A DNA stretch of 45,807 bases from contig JAQWGO010000001.1 of NCBI GenBank assembly GCA_029238175.1, forward strand, positions 1 to 45,807, read 5' to 3'. Made by a program: the position numbers and the translations under genes. Below are positions 4,031 through 7,510 of this stretch, in pieces; the stretch's first letter is position 1, and the number at the start of each line of letters is the position of its first letter. The notes under the pieces are model-generated. The model did not search any database. It was not told the DNA's origin and saw only the letters and a program-made list of their open reading frames with translations. The stretch is from Henriciella sp. Its GTDB lineage: Bacteria > Pseudomonadota > Alphaproteobacteria > Caulobacterales > Hyphomonadaceae.

Positions 4031-4218
4031 TCCACCTCCGGACATCTCGGCGGTAAAAAAGATTGTAATCAGTCATTACGGACCAATCAGGACGCTCTTT
4101 TTTAAACTCCTAGCGCACGCATCCCAACTCTACGGGCAACCCGTAAAGCGATAAATCCTGAATGTGATGTAGAGAAATCTATCCCCACCCCATCCAACCT
4201 GAACTATACTCCAAACCT

Positions 4219-4596
4219 ATGGAGATCAGTTTCAACCCCAAGCACTATGCCCATGTGCCCGTCTATTACTGGCCGTGGATTTGGTGGCAGCTTGTCTGGC
4301 TGCGTGGCTGGGCTGAGGGTTTGCGCCGGGATATCTTGTTTGAGGTTGCCCCGAACGGCAAAGTTCACGTCGTTTTCTGGTCGGATGACAGAAACGACCT
4401 GCGCGCATGGATGTGGGGGCAGGAAACCGCACCGCGCCGCCACCTCGATTATATGGACAATGCCGCTGGTGATGTGGACCTGAACTATTTTGTTTGGGCA
4501 ATGGCCAAAGCGCTAGAGCGTACTGGCCATCTCGTTCGCTGGGTCTGGGTCCGCCTTATGTTGCGCGCAGTCCCCCCATTTGAGGATAGTGGCTAA
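4219..4596 (+). CDS. Trp-rich hypothetical protein
   Basis: An open frame of 125 residues starting at ATG 4219. I do not recognise it. Twelve of 125 residues are Trp, concentrated in an aromatic N-terminal segment (YYWPWIWWQLVWLRGW, about 17-32) and again near WMWGQ, FVWAMA and RWVWVRL. The first segment is amphipathic-aromatic rather than a classical membrane helix, so a peripheral or interfacial protein is possible. It stands alone, 240 bases after gyrB and in front of a pair of inverted palindromes. No strong ribosome binding site is visible before the ATG, which lowers confidence. No function is proposed. Confidence 0.6.
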   Translation: MEISFNPKHYAHVPVYYWPWIWWQLVWLRGWAEGLRRDILFEVAPNGKVHVVFWSDDRNDLRAWMWGQETAPRRHLDYMDNAAGDVDLNYFVWAMAKALERTGHLVRWVWVRLMLRAVPPFEDSG

Positions 4597-4604
4597 TTTC
4601 CGTC

Positions 4605-4626
4605 GATACCTGCGCAGGCAGGTATC
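4605..4626. repeat. palindromic repeat, copy 1
   Basis: GATACCTG / CAGGTATC stem around the loop CGCAGG. Its reverse complement aligns well with the element at 4720-4739, so the two form an inverted pair about 95 bases apart, as in REP doublets (REPINs). Confidence 0.6.
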
Positions 4627-4719
4627 CAACATCGAATAGGGCCTCAAGGTCAGACGACCTTAGATGCACCAAAACGCTCAGGCAAACCCAACCATCCAAG
4701 CTCTATCTTCCGGAGCGGG

Positions 4720-4739
4720 ATACCTGCCCACACAGGTAT
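4720..4739. repeat. palindromic repeat, copy 2 (inverted)
   Basis: ATACCTG / CAGGTAT stem around CCCACA. It shares the GGATACCTGCC head with copy 1 read in the opposite direction. Its position in a gene-free stretch fits a REPIN-like mobile palindrome. Confidence 0.6.
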
Positions 4740-4838: not shown

Positions 4839-4964
4839 TTTCAACAATATCAACGCCGTAATATTTTTTAATATATCCATCAGAAGCGCGTCAGGAAGTT
4901 TTTTGCTGGCTCGGTCATCTCTCTCCTCACAGCCAACGGGGCTGACACACAAATGGAGATACAC

Positions 4965-5165
4965 ATGACCAACCTTATTAACACTGCACAAACAAACGCC
5001 GTCGCAACCGCAGTTTTCACTTTCGCACAGCAGGCTCTTAACGCCCCAAACGCGGTGACACTCATTGCGCCGAGCATTGAGAGCAACGAAGCGCCAGAGG
5101 CATACCGCCCTCGCACTTTGGAAAGCCGCCGCCGCCGCGCCAAACGCCTTGCAGGCCGCCGCTAG
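4965..5165 (+). CDS. tandem small protein A, basic C-terminal tail
   Basis: Small protein of 66 residues. An upstream in-frame ATG at 4953 exists, but GGAG at 4956-4959 sits 5-6 bases before ATG 4965, so I choose 4965. The N-terminal half is uncharged and Ala/Thr/Asn-rich (VFTFAQQALNAPNA). An acidic linker follows (ESNEAPEA), then a strongly basic tail, YRPRTLESRRRR plus AKRLAGRR. It aligns without gaps over all 66 residues with the next gene, and tail differences are mostly silent third-position changes, so the protein sequence appears to be conserved. I recognise no family. The basic tail suggests binding to nucleic acid or another polyanion; this is inference. Confidence 0.72.
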   Translation: MTNLINTAQTNAVATAVFTFAQQALNAPNAVTLIAPSIESNEAPEAYRPRTLESRRRRAKRLAGRR

Positions 5166-5226
5166 GCCTCACCCCACCCTTTCAAACATCACCGCATATC
5201 GCGGACATCATTTTCGGAGAAACACC

Positions 5227-5427
5227 ATGACACATCGCATCTCAACATCATCAGTTTCAATCGCAACAACACCAGTATTCGTGTTCGACGCAGAAGCCCT
5301 TCAAACGCCAAACGCGTTCATCATCACAGAACCAACTGTCGAAACAGAAGAGACCGGCGAGACCTACCGCCCCCGCGCCCTAGAAAGCCGCCGTCGCCGC
5401 GCCAAGCGCCTCGCAGGTCGCCGCTAG
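5227..5427 (+). CDS. tandem small protein B, paralogue of A
   Basis: Small protein of 66 residues with a CGGAGA ribosome binding site 7 bases before ATG 5227. It is colinear with the protein at 4965-5165: shared VFxF, ALxxPNA, a Thr/Glu-rich acidic linker, and the tail YRPRxLESRRRR-AKRLAGRR with a single Thr/Ala difference. In the tail I count six codons with silent changes against one replacement, which points to selection on the protein after an old duplication. The two genes are 61 bases apart, and a small CCGC-ATATC-GCGG hairpin (5192-5204) lies between them. A strong terminator follows, so the pair forms its own transcription unit. The family is unknown to me. Confidence 0.72.
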   Translation: MTHRISTSSVSIATTPVFVFDAEALQTPNAFIITEPTVETEETGETYRPRALESRRRRAKRLAGRR

Positions 5428-5452
5428 GTTTCACTACTCAACACACAAAACA

Positions 5453-5490
5453 GCCGCACCGCTCAATAGAACGGTGCGGCGTGCGTTTTG
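5453..5490 (+). terminator. intrinsic terminator of the small-protein unit
   Basis: A 9-bp GC-rich stem (GCCGCACCG / CGGTGCGGC) with a 10-base loop, starting 25 bases after the stop of small protein B, followed by GTGCGTTTTG. The U-run is short but the stem is strong. Confidence 0.7.
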
Positions 5491-5496
5491 ACAAGT

Positions 5497-5523
5497 ATTC
5501 AAGATTGACGATCAATCCTGAAT
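5497..5523. promoter_or_regulatory. long imperfect palindrome
   Basis: ATTCAAGATTGA / TCAATCCTGAAT around the centre CGA: 12-base arms with one mismatch. It sits in the 330-base gap between the small-protein terminator and the lipoprotein genes, about 235 bases before the lipoprotein start. It could be an operator or a second hairpin. Confidence 0.4.
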
Positions 5524-5758
5524 CGCCGCTCACAAAAGTTTGATCACTACTCAAAATTCGGCAAAATCGCCGTAATCATGGATGATCGCCCCTAGATGCA
5601 TCATTCAGACCCATAAAACTTTCGGGTCCGATACTGGACATCGGCTCAGCACCCAATAAGCTACATTTGTAACATTAGTTTACAGAACGCCCCCAATTGC
5701 CTGCCAGCACAAGAAATCTTAAATTTGCCGCGACTTCAACGCGGTGGAGGACACCCAG

Positions 5759-6622
5759 TTGAAACGTATTCTAGCATCTTCAGTTCTTTCGCTTTCACTC
5801 CTTATCACTGGCTGTGTAAGCGCCTCTCAATCAGGCGCTTCTAACCTGACCGGGCCGTACCTTGGGCAAAACACACCCGGGACGACCCCCGAGATCTTTG
5901 CACCGGGAATCGTGAGCGGAGAGGGGCGTGACTTAAGTGGCTTCTTCAACCCAGATTTGACGGAATTCTATTTCACAAGAAGGGATTCCGAGTCGGGAAA
6001 GTGGTCTCTAATCGCCTTCACCCGTAGTGGCGACCAATGGGAGCAGACGTCGGTAACGCCTAGGATTGGCCGTCCTGTTTTGTCCCCAGATGGACAGACA
6101 ATGCATTTGGGGAAGCGCTATATGGACCGCACCCAGACCGGATGGTCGGATGTAAAGGACCTCGGCCCAATGTTTGATCGGGAAGAATGGGGTATAATGC
6201 GACTATCTTCATCCTCTAATGGCACTTACGTTTTGGATGACTATAAAGGCAGCGACGTCATTCGTATTTCAACACTCATAGATGGTGTACGCCAAGAACC
6301 CGAGCAGCTGGGCCCCGAAATCAACACTGGGGAATTCAATGCTCATCCCTTCATCGCACCGGATGAATCCTACTTGATATGGGATGGCGTGCGAGCAGAA
6401 GGATATGGCAGAAGCGACCTCTGGATCAGCTTCAAGCAGCAAGATGGCACATGGGGACAAGCCCTCAATATGGGGCCGGAGATAAATACCGAAGGCCGCG
6501 AAGCCAGCGCTTTCGTGACCGCCGACGGAAAATACATTCTTTTCAGTAGAACAGCTGGATCCGATGAGGGCGACATCTATTGGGCTGATGCGCAGATTAT
6601 TGAGACACTCAGAAACAAGTAG
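5759..6622 (+). CDS. lipoprotein with PD40-like beta-propeller repeats (copy 1)
   Basis: Predicted 287-residue lipoprotein. I choose the TTG start at 5759, because GGAGG at 5746-5750 is spaced 8 bases from it and the resulting N-terminus (MKRILASSVLSLSLLITGC) is a proper lipoprotein signal with lipobox ITGC. The GTG at 5744 overlaps that ribosome binding site. The mature part has repeated beta-strand blocks typical of TolB/WD40-like PD40 propellers: TEFYFTRR, VLSPDGQTMHLG, HPFIAPDESYLIWD, SDLWISFKQQDGTWG and FVTADGKYILFSR. Each has the xPDGxxxxF/W signature. It is likely anchored in the envelope, facing the periplasm, as a binding or scaffold protein; the ligand is unknown. The tandem paralogue begins 9 bases downstream. 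Confidence 0.8.
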   Translation: MKRILASSVLSLSLLITGCVSASQSGASNLTGPYLGQNTPGTTPEIFAPGIVSGEGRDLSGFFNPDLTEFYFTRRDSESGKWSLIAFTRSGDQWEQTSVTPRIGRPVLSPDGQTMHLGKRYMDRTQTGWSDVKDLGPMFDREEWGIMRLSSSSNGTYVLDDYKGSDVIRISTLIDGVRQEPEQLGPEINTGEFNAHPFIAPDESYLIWDGVRAEGYGRSDLWISFKQQDGTWGQALNMGPEINTEGREASAFVTADGKYILFSRTAGSDEGDIYWADAQIIETLRNK

Positions 6623-6631
6623 AGACATGGT

Positions 6632-7510
6632 ATGAAACAGATTTTTCCGGCGGCGCTTTTGTCGCTTACGCTTGCACTGGGGGGCTGCGTAAGCTCTGCC
6701 ACCAATGACACATCTGAGGCCAATGCCCTCACCGTCCTTGGTCAAAATCCTCCCGGCCTAAAGGCTGAGCTTTTCGCGCCCGGACTTATTTCAACCGACA
6801 GCCTGGAAATCGAGAGCGTTTTCGCACCAGGGATGACGGAGTTTTACTTCACGCGGCAGGTCAACCGCGGGCCGGTTAACACCCATACTTTTAGCTATGA
6901 AAACGGAGAATGGCGCGAAACCAGCGTGGAACCGCGTACCGGTGAAGTCGCCCTGTCGCCCGATGGAAACACGATGTATTTGGGCAACATGTATCGAGAG
7001 CGCACAGAAGACGGGTGGACAGAAAGCAAAAGCCTTGGTGCTGCCTATGAAGATACTGAAATTATGCGCTTAACAGTGTCATCGACTGGAACATATGTGT
7101 TTGATGAACGTGATGAAGTTGGTACTATCCGATTTTCGCGTATGGTGGATGGACAGCGCGAAGCGCCAAAAGCGTTCGATGAAACGATCAATTCCGGCGC
7201 ATTTACCGCGCACCCGTTTATCGCCCCTGATGAAAGCTACATTATTTGGGATAGCGACCGTGACGGCGGCTATGGCGATTCAGACCTTTATATCAGCTTC
7301 CGCCAAGACGACGGTCGCTGGGGACCTGCTATAAACATGGGCGAAGGCATAAACACCGAATACGAAGATGCGTATGGCAGCGTCACGCCGGACGGGAAGT
7401 ATTTCTTCTTTCACACGGTCGATTTGAACCGTGAAAAGCCTGACGAAAGTTTCGCCGATGTATTCTGGGCGGACGCAGATATTATTGAATCCCTGAGACC
7501 TAAGAAATAG
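6632..7510 (+). CDS. lipoprotein with PD40-like beta-propeller repeats (copy 2)
   Basis: Paralogue of the preceding gene, 292 residues, starting at ATG 6632 only 9 bases after its stop, so the two are certainly co-transcribed. The lipoprotein signal is MKQIFPAALLSLTLALGGC, with Cys19 as the acylated residue. The propeller blocks occur in the same order as in copy 1: MTEFYFTRQ, ALSPDGNTMYLG, HPFIAPDESYIIWD, DSDLYISFRQDDGRWG and SVTPDGKYFFFH. The ends also match (FWADADIIESLRPKK against YWADAQIIETLRNK). The two copies have diverged considerably, so the duplication is not recent. Probably an outer-membrane or periplasm-facing lipoprotein; ligand unknown. Confidence 0.8.
   Translation: MKQIFPAALLSLTLALGGCVSSATNDTSEANALTVLGQNPPGLKAELFAPGLISTDSLEIESVFAPGMTEFYFTRQVNRGPVNTHTFSYENGEWRETSVEPRTGEVALSPDGNTMYLGNMYRERTEDGWTESKSLGAAYEDTEIMRLTVSSTGTYVFDERDEVGTIRFSRMVDGQREAPKAFDETINSGAFTAHPFIAPDESYIIWDSDRDGGYGDSDLYISFRQDDGRWGPAINMGEGINTEYEDAYGSVTPDGKYFFFHTVDLNREKPDESFADVFWADADIIESLRPKK

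Follow-up and report, generated by a model that had tools for sequence, protein, structure and literature searches.

Questions raised by a small tandem pair of reading frames downstream of gyrB include whether such short frames are genes at all, whether anything else carries their nearly identical basic tail, and what a protein built in this way might do. The pair, called P1 and P2 here, lies in the window, by which we mean the whole stretch of 45,807 nucleotides of Henriciella sp. DNA that was analyzed.

Two tandem genes and the part that selection keeps

P1 occupies 4965–5165 on the + strand (codons 4965–5162, TAG at 5163–5165) and its paralogue P2 occupies 5227–5427 on the same strand (codons 5227–5424, TAG at 5425–5427), with 61 nt between them. 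The initial annotation had described two adjacent frames of 66 codons that align without gaps, and so they do: 36/66 residues are identical in the ungapped alignment and the two match at E = 1.5e-17 in a search of their own genome, so the likeness is not due to chance. Equally, both carry the PNA motif it reported, at residues 28–30, and each has a ribosome-binding site of its own, with GGAG at 4955–4958 lying 6 nt 5' of the P1 ATG (4965) and GGAG in the region 5214–5219 lying 7 nt 5' of the P2 ATG (5227). The tail runs from residue 47 to residue 66 (P1, 5103–5162, YRPRTLESRRRRAKRLAGRR; P2, 5365–5424, YRPRALESRRRRAKRLAGRR), holds nine basic residues and one acidic, and belongs to proteins with predicted pI values of 11.7 (P1) and 10.6 (P2) and arginine fractions of 0.14 and 0.15. 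An acidic linker ahead of the tail, also proposed, is clear in P2 but weaker in P1 (7 versus 3 acidic residues in the head).

Comparison of the two copies tells what has been held constant. At the DNA level 120/198 bases are identical overall and 51/60 in the tail, where, as the initial annotation had counted, six codons differ silently (49, 52, 56, 60, 62 and 64) and one changes the residue (T to A at 51). By the Nei-Gojobori method the tail gives dN 0.024 and dS 0.717 (dN/dS about 0.03); the whole of P1/P2 gives dN 0.363 and dS 1.97, a ratio of about 0.18 that saturation of dS in the head makes approximate. There are more synonymous changes than neutrality would give (binomial P = 3e-4 for the tail and 1e-4 over the full length), and differences at codon positions 1, 2 and 3 number 23, 16 and 39. 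When six frames were compared across both copies, the read frame had the highest residue identity (36/66, the next 31/65) and was the only one free of stops in both. P1 and P2 are coding genes; the selection on the protein that had been suggested is purifying and is strongest in the tail, where it is strong. In this duplicated pair the basic tail is kept and the head diverges.

Downstream, the "strong terminator" of the initial annotation proved half right. The stretch 5428–5500 folds 4.1 standard deviations better than shuffles (z = -4.1), with a terminator-like hairpin at 5453–5480, but the scanner scored it on the - strand only, and on the + strand the T-run is poor and set at a distance, starting only after GTGCG. 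A stable hairpin behind short frames might suggest that the transcript is what matters, as a regulatory RNA or a leader with chance frames in it. We consider this extremely improbable: the synonymous excess and the codon-position pattern argue for a peptide, Rfam has no match in the window at gathering score, and over the many genomes described below the start, a GGAG-like site, the length and the tail are all kept as protein.

The surroundings hold repeats of other kinds. A frame at 4219–4596 on the + strand (within 4176–4647) encodes 125 residues without a Pfam match and belongs to a repeat that is dispersed: the same genome has 2 matches at E ≤ 1e-5, G022 has 25 and G012 has 14, with none in the other 26 genomes of the genus, and the two copies in the home genome have about 470 bases of DNA in common at 86%. 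Between this frame and the pair lie two short palindromes, ATACCTGC...CAGGTAT, at 4606–4625 and 4720–4739. Directly downstream of P1/P2 stands a second tandem pair (5744–6622 and 6632–7510), which encodes 292-residue PD40-repeat proteins with lipoprotein-like starts.

Relatives in the Hyphomonadaceae

The lack of homologues in any relative had been named beforehand as grounds against a new family. Relatives were sought with profiles built stepwise, whose own rows count among the resulting matches, and proteins of 60–67 residues were found in 68 of 105 Hyphomonadaceae genomes (E ≤ 1e-3, profile rows included). The 68 come from 4 of 10 genera: the same genus as the window (26 of its 29 genomes), g5 (39), g8 (2) and g9 (1). 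The three genomes of the genus that gave no match measure 2.3–2.5 Mb. Wider searches added little outside this group. Across the order, 58 of 398 genomes matched (E ≤ 1e-3), 57 of them Hyphomonadaceae, and the sole exception, in G273, reads through a stop. Across the class, matches at E ≤ 1e-4 came from 2 of 385 genomes, the home genome and one more member of the Hyphomonadaceae, in a search that scored 16 candidates per genome and could for that reason have missed distant members. A loose search (E ≤ 1) touched 85/105 genomes, many of its rows by chance, and served only for picking candidates. Used alone, P1 found one match outside its own genome in 61 genomes, in the same genus, and scans of genome contigs with it yielded no confirmed relative; the same scan with a query from group A (below) gave nine loci.

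Aligned, these proteins end in a tail of about L-x-x-x-RRRR-x-x-R (one aligned member has RRRKR) and average 14.8% arginine (mean of 40). P1 and P2 share this tail motif and fall within the length range. The 20-residue, nearly identical tail that had been offered as the family motif is confined to P1 and P2; the shorter pattern is what the family keeps.

Heads diverge much among the three larger groups, which differ in place as well. Group A (10 read) consists of 67-residue proteins ending in LDKRRRRRARLSNRH or nearly so; its loci vary, several adjoining a GMC-oxidoreductase-like gene, and pN is below pS in 45/45 pairs. Group B (12 members, 61–64 residues, ANDN in 11) and group C (11 members from g5, g8 and g9, 60–64 residues, AND in 11/11) both occupy a home locus, to which no group A gene belongs. 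There an FAD-dependent oxidoreductase-like gene and/or a photolyase-like gene (the latter upstream in most of group C) is followed by the small gene, a sixA-like gene and a peroxiredoxin-like gene. These neighbor names reflect recognition of protein starts, except for ten proteins near palindromes that were scanned against Pfam. A further MQAT group (three members: one each in G028 and G014, and a third copy in the home genome) also sits at the home locus, and two ungrouped members, G003a and G014c, lie elsewhere.

The initial annotation had asked whether the tail occurs elsewhere in the genome on a different head. It does, in one place: the third copy, at C151:61802–61981, which a class-search profile built without it recovers at E = 3.8e-7 and which has an FAD-dependent oxidoreductase-like gene on one side and, on the other, a sixA-like gene with a peroxiredoxin-like gene beyond. 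This copy occupies the home locus of the genome, and P1/P2 stand apart from it. In 28 relatives the first 1.5 kb downstream of gyrB revealed no gene of the P1/P2 type (judged by frames of at least 35 residues ending in an arginine run), and the pair is therefore known from its own genome only.

An internal AND motif is found in 22 of 40 members, 11 of which have ANDN; counted by eye, it falls to 11/12 of group B, 11/11 of group C and 0/17 of the others. In four genomes the tmRNA tag, as read from its gene, is ANDNFAEGELLAA (three genomes) or ANDNFAEGELMAA (one), and the first residues of ANDNFAEGELLAA resemble the ANDN found inside group B proteins.

That no known family has such a tail, as the initial annotation supposed, agrees with every library consulted. 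P1 and P2 match nothing in Pfam, NCBIfam or PADLOC, and the one PHROGs match, to P1, is at chance level (E 0.099). When 23 members were scanned singly, the best E values were likewise those of chance (Pfam 0.057, NCBIfam 0.2, PHROGs 0.016), the PDB offered no solved chain at E ≤ 1, and among the titles and abstracts listed in literature searches there was no description of a Hyphomonadaceae Arg-tail family. An origin in phages or plasmids was considered and set aside, P1 finding nothing by tblastn at E ≤ 1 in phage and plasmid collections; so was an origin in defense systems or phages, given no PADLOC match and PHROGs matches at chance level. The small-protein family has no name and no entry in the libraries searched; its locus is conserved, and so is the palindrome at its promoters.

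Is the pair kin to this family?

Evidence for kinship comes from profiles from which the pair was held out. When 38 members, P1 and P2 excluded, made up the profile, a search of 18,579 stop-to-stop frames (taken from the window and retrieved loci) ranked P2 at E = 3.4e-6 and P1 at E = 0.0013, immediately behind the family members; the next other frame scored 0.52. With G003a and G014c held out too, P2 was found at 3.3e-5 and P1 at 0.087; these two members were themselves recovered when held out, at 1.7e-7 and 9.4e-5. A profile limited to groups B, C and MQAT still found P2 (3.7e-4), and P1 was not among its best 14 matches. From within the genus, the single-copy gene G003a aligns with P1 across residues 13–65 (E 9.7e-4). 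A tree joins P1 and P2 with support of 100/99, carries a long-branch warning and does not give the place of the pair among the groups.

P1 and P2 might instead have no tie to the family: as small basic proteins peculiar to one lineage and kin only to each other, they would have converged on an arginine-rich tail. Room for this exists because the heads of the pair score no better against the heads of relatives than shuffled heads do, so that kinship rests on the short arginine-rich tail; P1 falls as low as 0.087 when held out, the pair has neither palindrome nor home locus, and its absence downstream of gyrB in the 28 relatives fits as well. Against convergence, the held-out profiles bring P2 ahead of the best-ranked non-family frames in all three cases, and the first does the same for P1; the match between G003a and P1 spans residues 13–65, and length and architecture are the same. 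We regard convergence as unlikely, and kinship with the Arg-tail family as likely on these sequence comparisons. On balance it seems probable, if modestly so, that P1 and P2 are a tandem, relocated duplication in a family of 60–67-residue basic proteins, found here in the Hyphomonadaceae only, that would act as small adaptors.

A palindrome upstream and its possible regulon

The promoter regions of the family share a feature of their own. A palindrome, TTATTG-N5-CRATAA or nearly so (W at either end), precedes 34 of 36 relatives, at the home locus or elsewhere, and is missing from the upstream regions of P1, P2, G003a and G014c. All 10 group A genes have it despite their loci away from home, as do the third copy in the home genome and the second copy in G028. 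Core sites number 51 in 38 upstream regions of 250 bases versus 0.66 in mononucleotide shuffles, sites that are not independent because related genomes were counted apart. The strict palindrome nearest each gene starts 96–134 bp before the start codon.

Genome-wide the palindrome is rare. Its strict form was counted in five genomes, which have 1–5 sites each, and the reversed control matched once in total; a wider pattern, for which palindromic sites are counted on both strands, has 3–12 forward matches a genome in seven genomes versus 0–2 reversed. Forty neighborhoods, part of the wider-pattern sites, were read. Genes for DUF2807, S49 peptidase and GPP34 proteins recur there, as do OEP efflux genes and the HisKA kinase divergent from them; SufC-like ABC ATPase, radA, UrcA-like and PspB-like genes recur as well, and other sites lie inside genes or far from them. 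Pfam scans of ten neighboring proteins support DUF2807, S49, GPP34, OEP, HisKA, ABC_tran and a MarR-type regulator; the UrcA-like protein and one other had no match, and the PspB-like one had none above the cut-off. The rare palindrome seems to mark an undescribed Hyphomonadaceae regulon that includes envelope and stress genes.

Eleven patterns known for alphaproteobacterial promoters and operators (EcfG, CtrA, RpoH, LexA and others) were set aside, each occurring in at most 6 of the 38 upstream regions. UzcR was also considered and rejected as regulator of the palindrome, the half sites CATTAC-N6-TTAA given in PMC8963506 being unlike TTATTG-N5-CRATAA.

How the proteins might act

An AlphaFold2 model of P1, computed from an alignment with P2 and nine group A rows, is of low confidence for the most part (mean pLDDT 69.6, pTM 0.27), with a confident predicted helix in the tail at residues 52–63 (mean pLDDT 92 over residues 51–60), most of the rest at 50–70, and a four-residue helix at 22–25 of low confidence. 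Head and linker probably form a flexible tether that ends in a short cationic helix, which would dock on an acidic partner, whether RNA, an acidic protein or a membrane surface; the Arg-tail protein would then be a small adaptor or modulator, much like the arginine-rich DUF1127 proteins. RNA or a ribonucleoprotein is tentatively the single most likely partner, while a sensor kinase, another acidic protein and the inner-membrane surface may, taken together and with more doubt, supply it. An envelope or stress regulon would govern the production of the palindrome-bearing relatives, a reading drawn from the envelope and stress genes among the neighbors of the DNA motif, and P1/P2 would be under other control.

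Those same neighbors could be taken to mean that the site of action of the helix is the membrane or a sensor kinase, and that the protein modulates membrane or envelope stress instead of binding RNA. The palindrome is common to promoters near an OEP efflux gene with its divergent HisKA kinase and near DUF2807, S49 peptidase and GPP34 genes, and PMC12501420 reports DUF1127 proteins that bind the sensor kinases PhoR and SsrA. The palindrome is found near radA-like and SufC-like genes too, however, P1/P2 are without it, and neither protein has an apparent transmembrane stretch as read from its sequence, so that we hold this account to be somewhat unlikely. The initial annotation had suggested contact with nucleic acid or the ribosome; in this vein the tail might be mainly a nucleic-acid handle on ribosomes or the nucleoid, which would make the proteins ribosome- or DNA-associated stationary-phase factors. 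The charge of the tail and the high predicted pI values speak for such a role, but no ribosomal or nucleoid family matched, nor did any solved chain, and we think it decidedly unlikely.

The adaptor reading can be taken a step further. In Caulobacter, ANDN serves as an SspB docking site. The family could represent small adaptors of a new kind, induced by stress and short-lived. Most members read would belong to the undescribed palindrome-marked regulon, and the AND motif, where present, could hand the protein to SspB and ClpXP; P1 and P2, which have neither operator nor motif, would then be a stable duplicate controlled in another way. We offer this as an improbable proposal. The conserved locus and the promoter palindrome make regulation of the Arg-tail family testable at once.

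Comparison with known systems

Set beside the unnamed Hyphomonadaceae Arg-tail proteins, P1 and P2 are alike in length (60–67 residues), in the L-x-x-x-RRRR-x-x-R tail and in being stand-alone genes with a ribosome-binding site. They differ in their tandem arrangement, their location downstream of gyrB, their lack of palindrome and AND motif, and heads without detectable similarity.

Among described families, DUF1127 (YjiS-like, including CcaF1) is the closest analogue in mode of action. As a candidate for membership, DUF1127 (PF06568) was rejected: neither the two window proteins at E ≤ 10 nor 23 members at E ≤ 1 matched it. According to PMC12501420, DUF1127 proteins are about 14% arginine, are predicted to form two arginine-bearing helices, have alphaproteobacteria among their hosts and occur as several paralogues per genome in some species; CcaF1 of Rhodobacter is reported there to bind RNA. 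The Arg-tail family resembles them, on that account, in small size, arginine content, alphaproteobacterial hosts, several paralogues per genome in some species and a predicted arginine-bearing helix, whereas the P1 model has one C-terminal helix of high confidence and the four-residue one of low confidence, compared with the published two. With a different motif and a distribution found here in one bacterial family only, the Arg-tail proteins provide a comparison case for the question whether RNA or protein partners mediate the action of small arginine-rich bacterial proteins.
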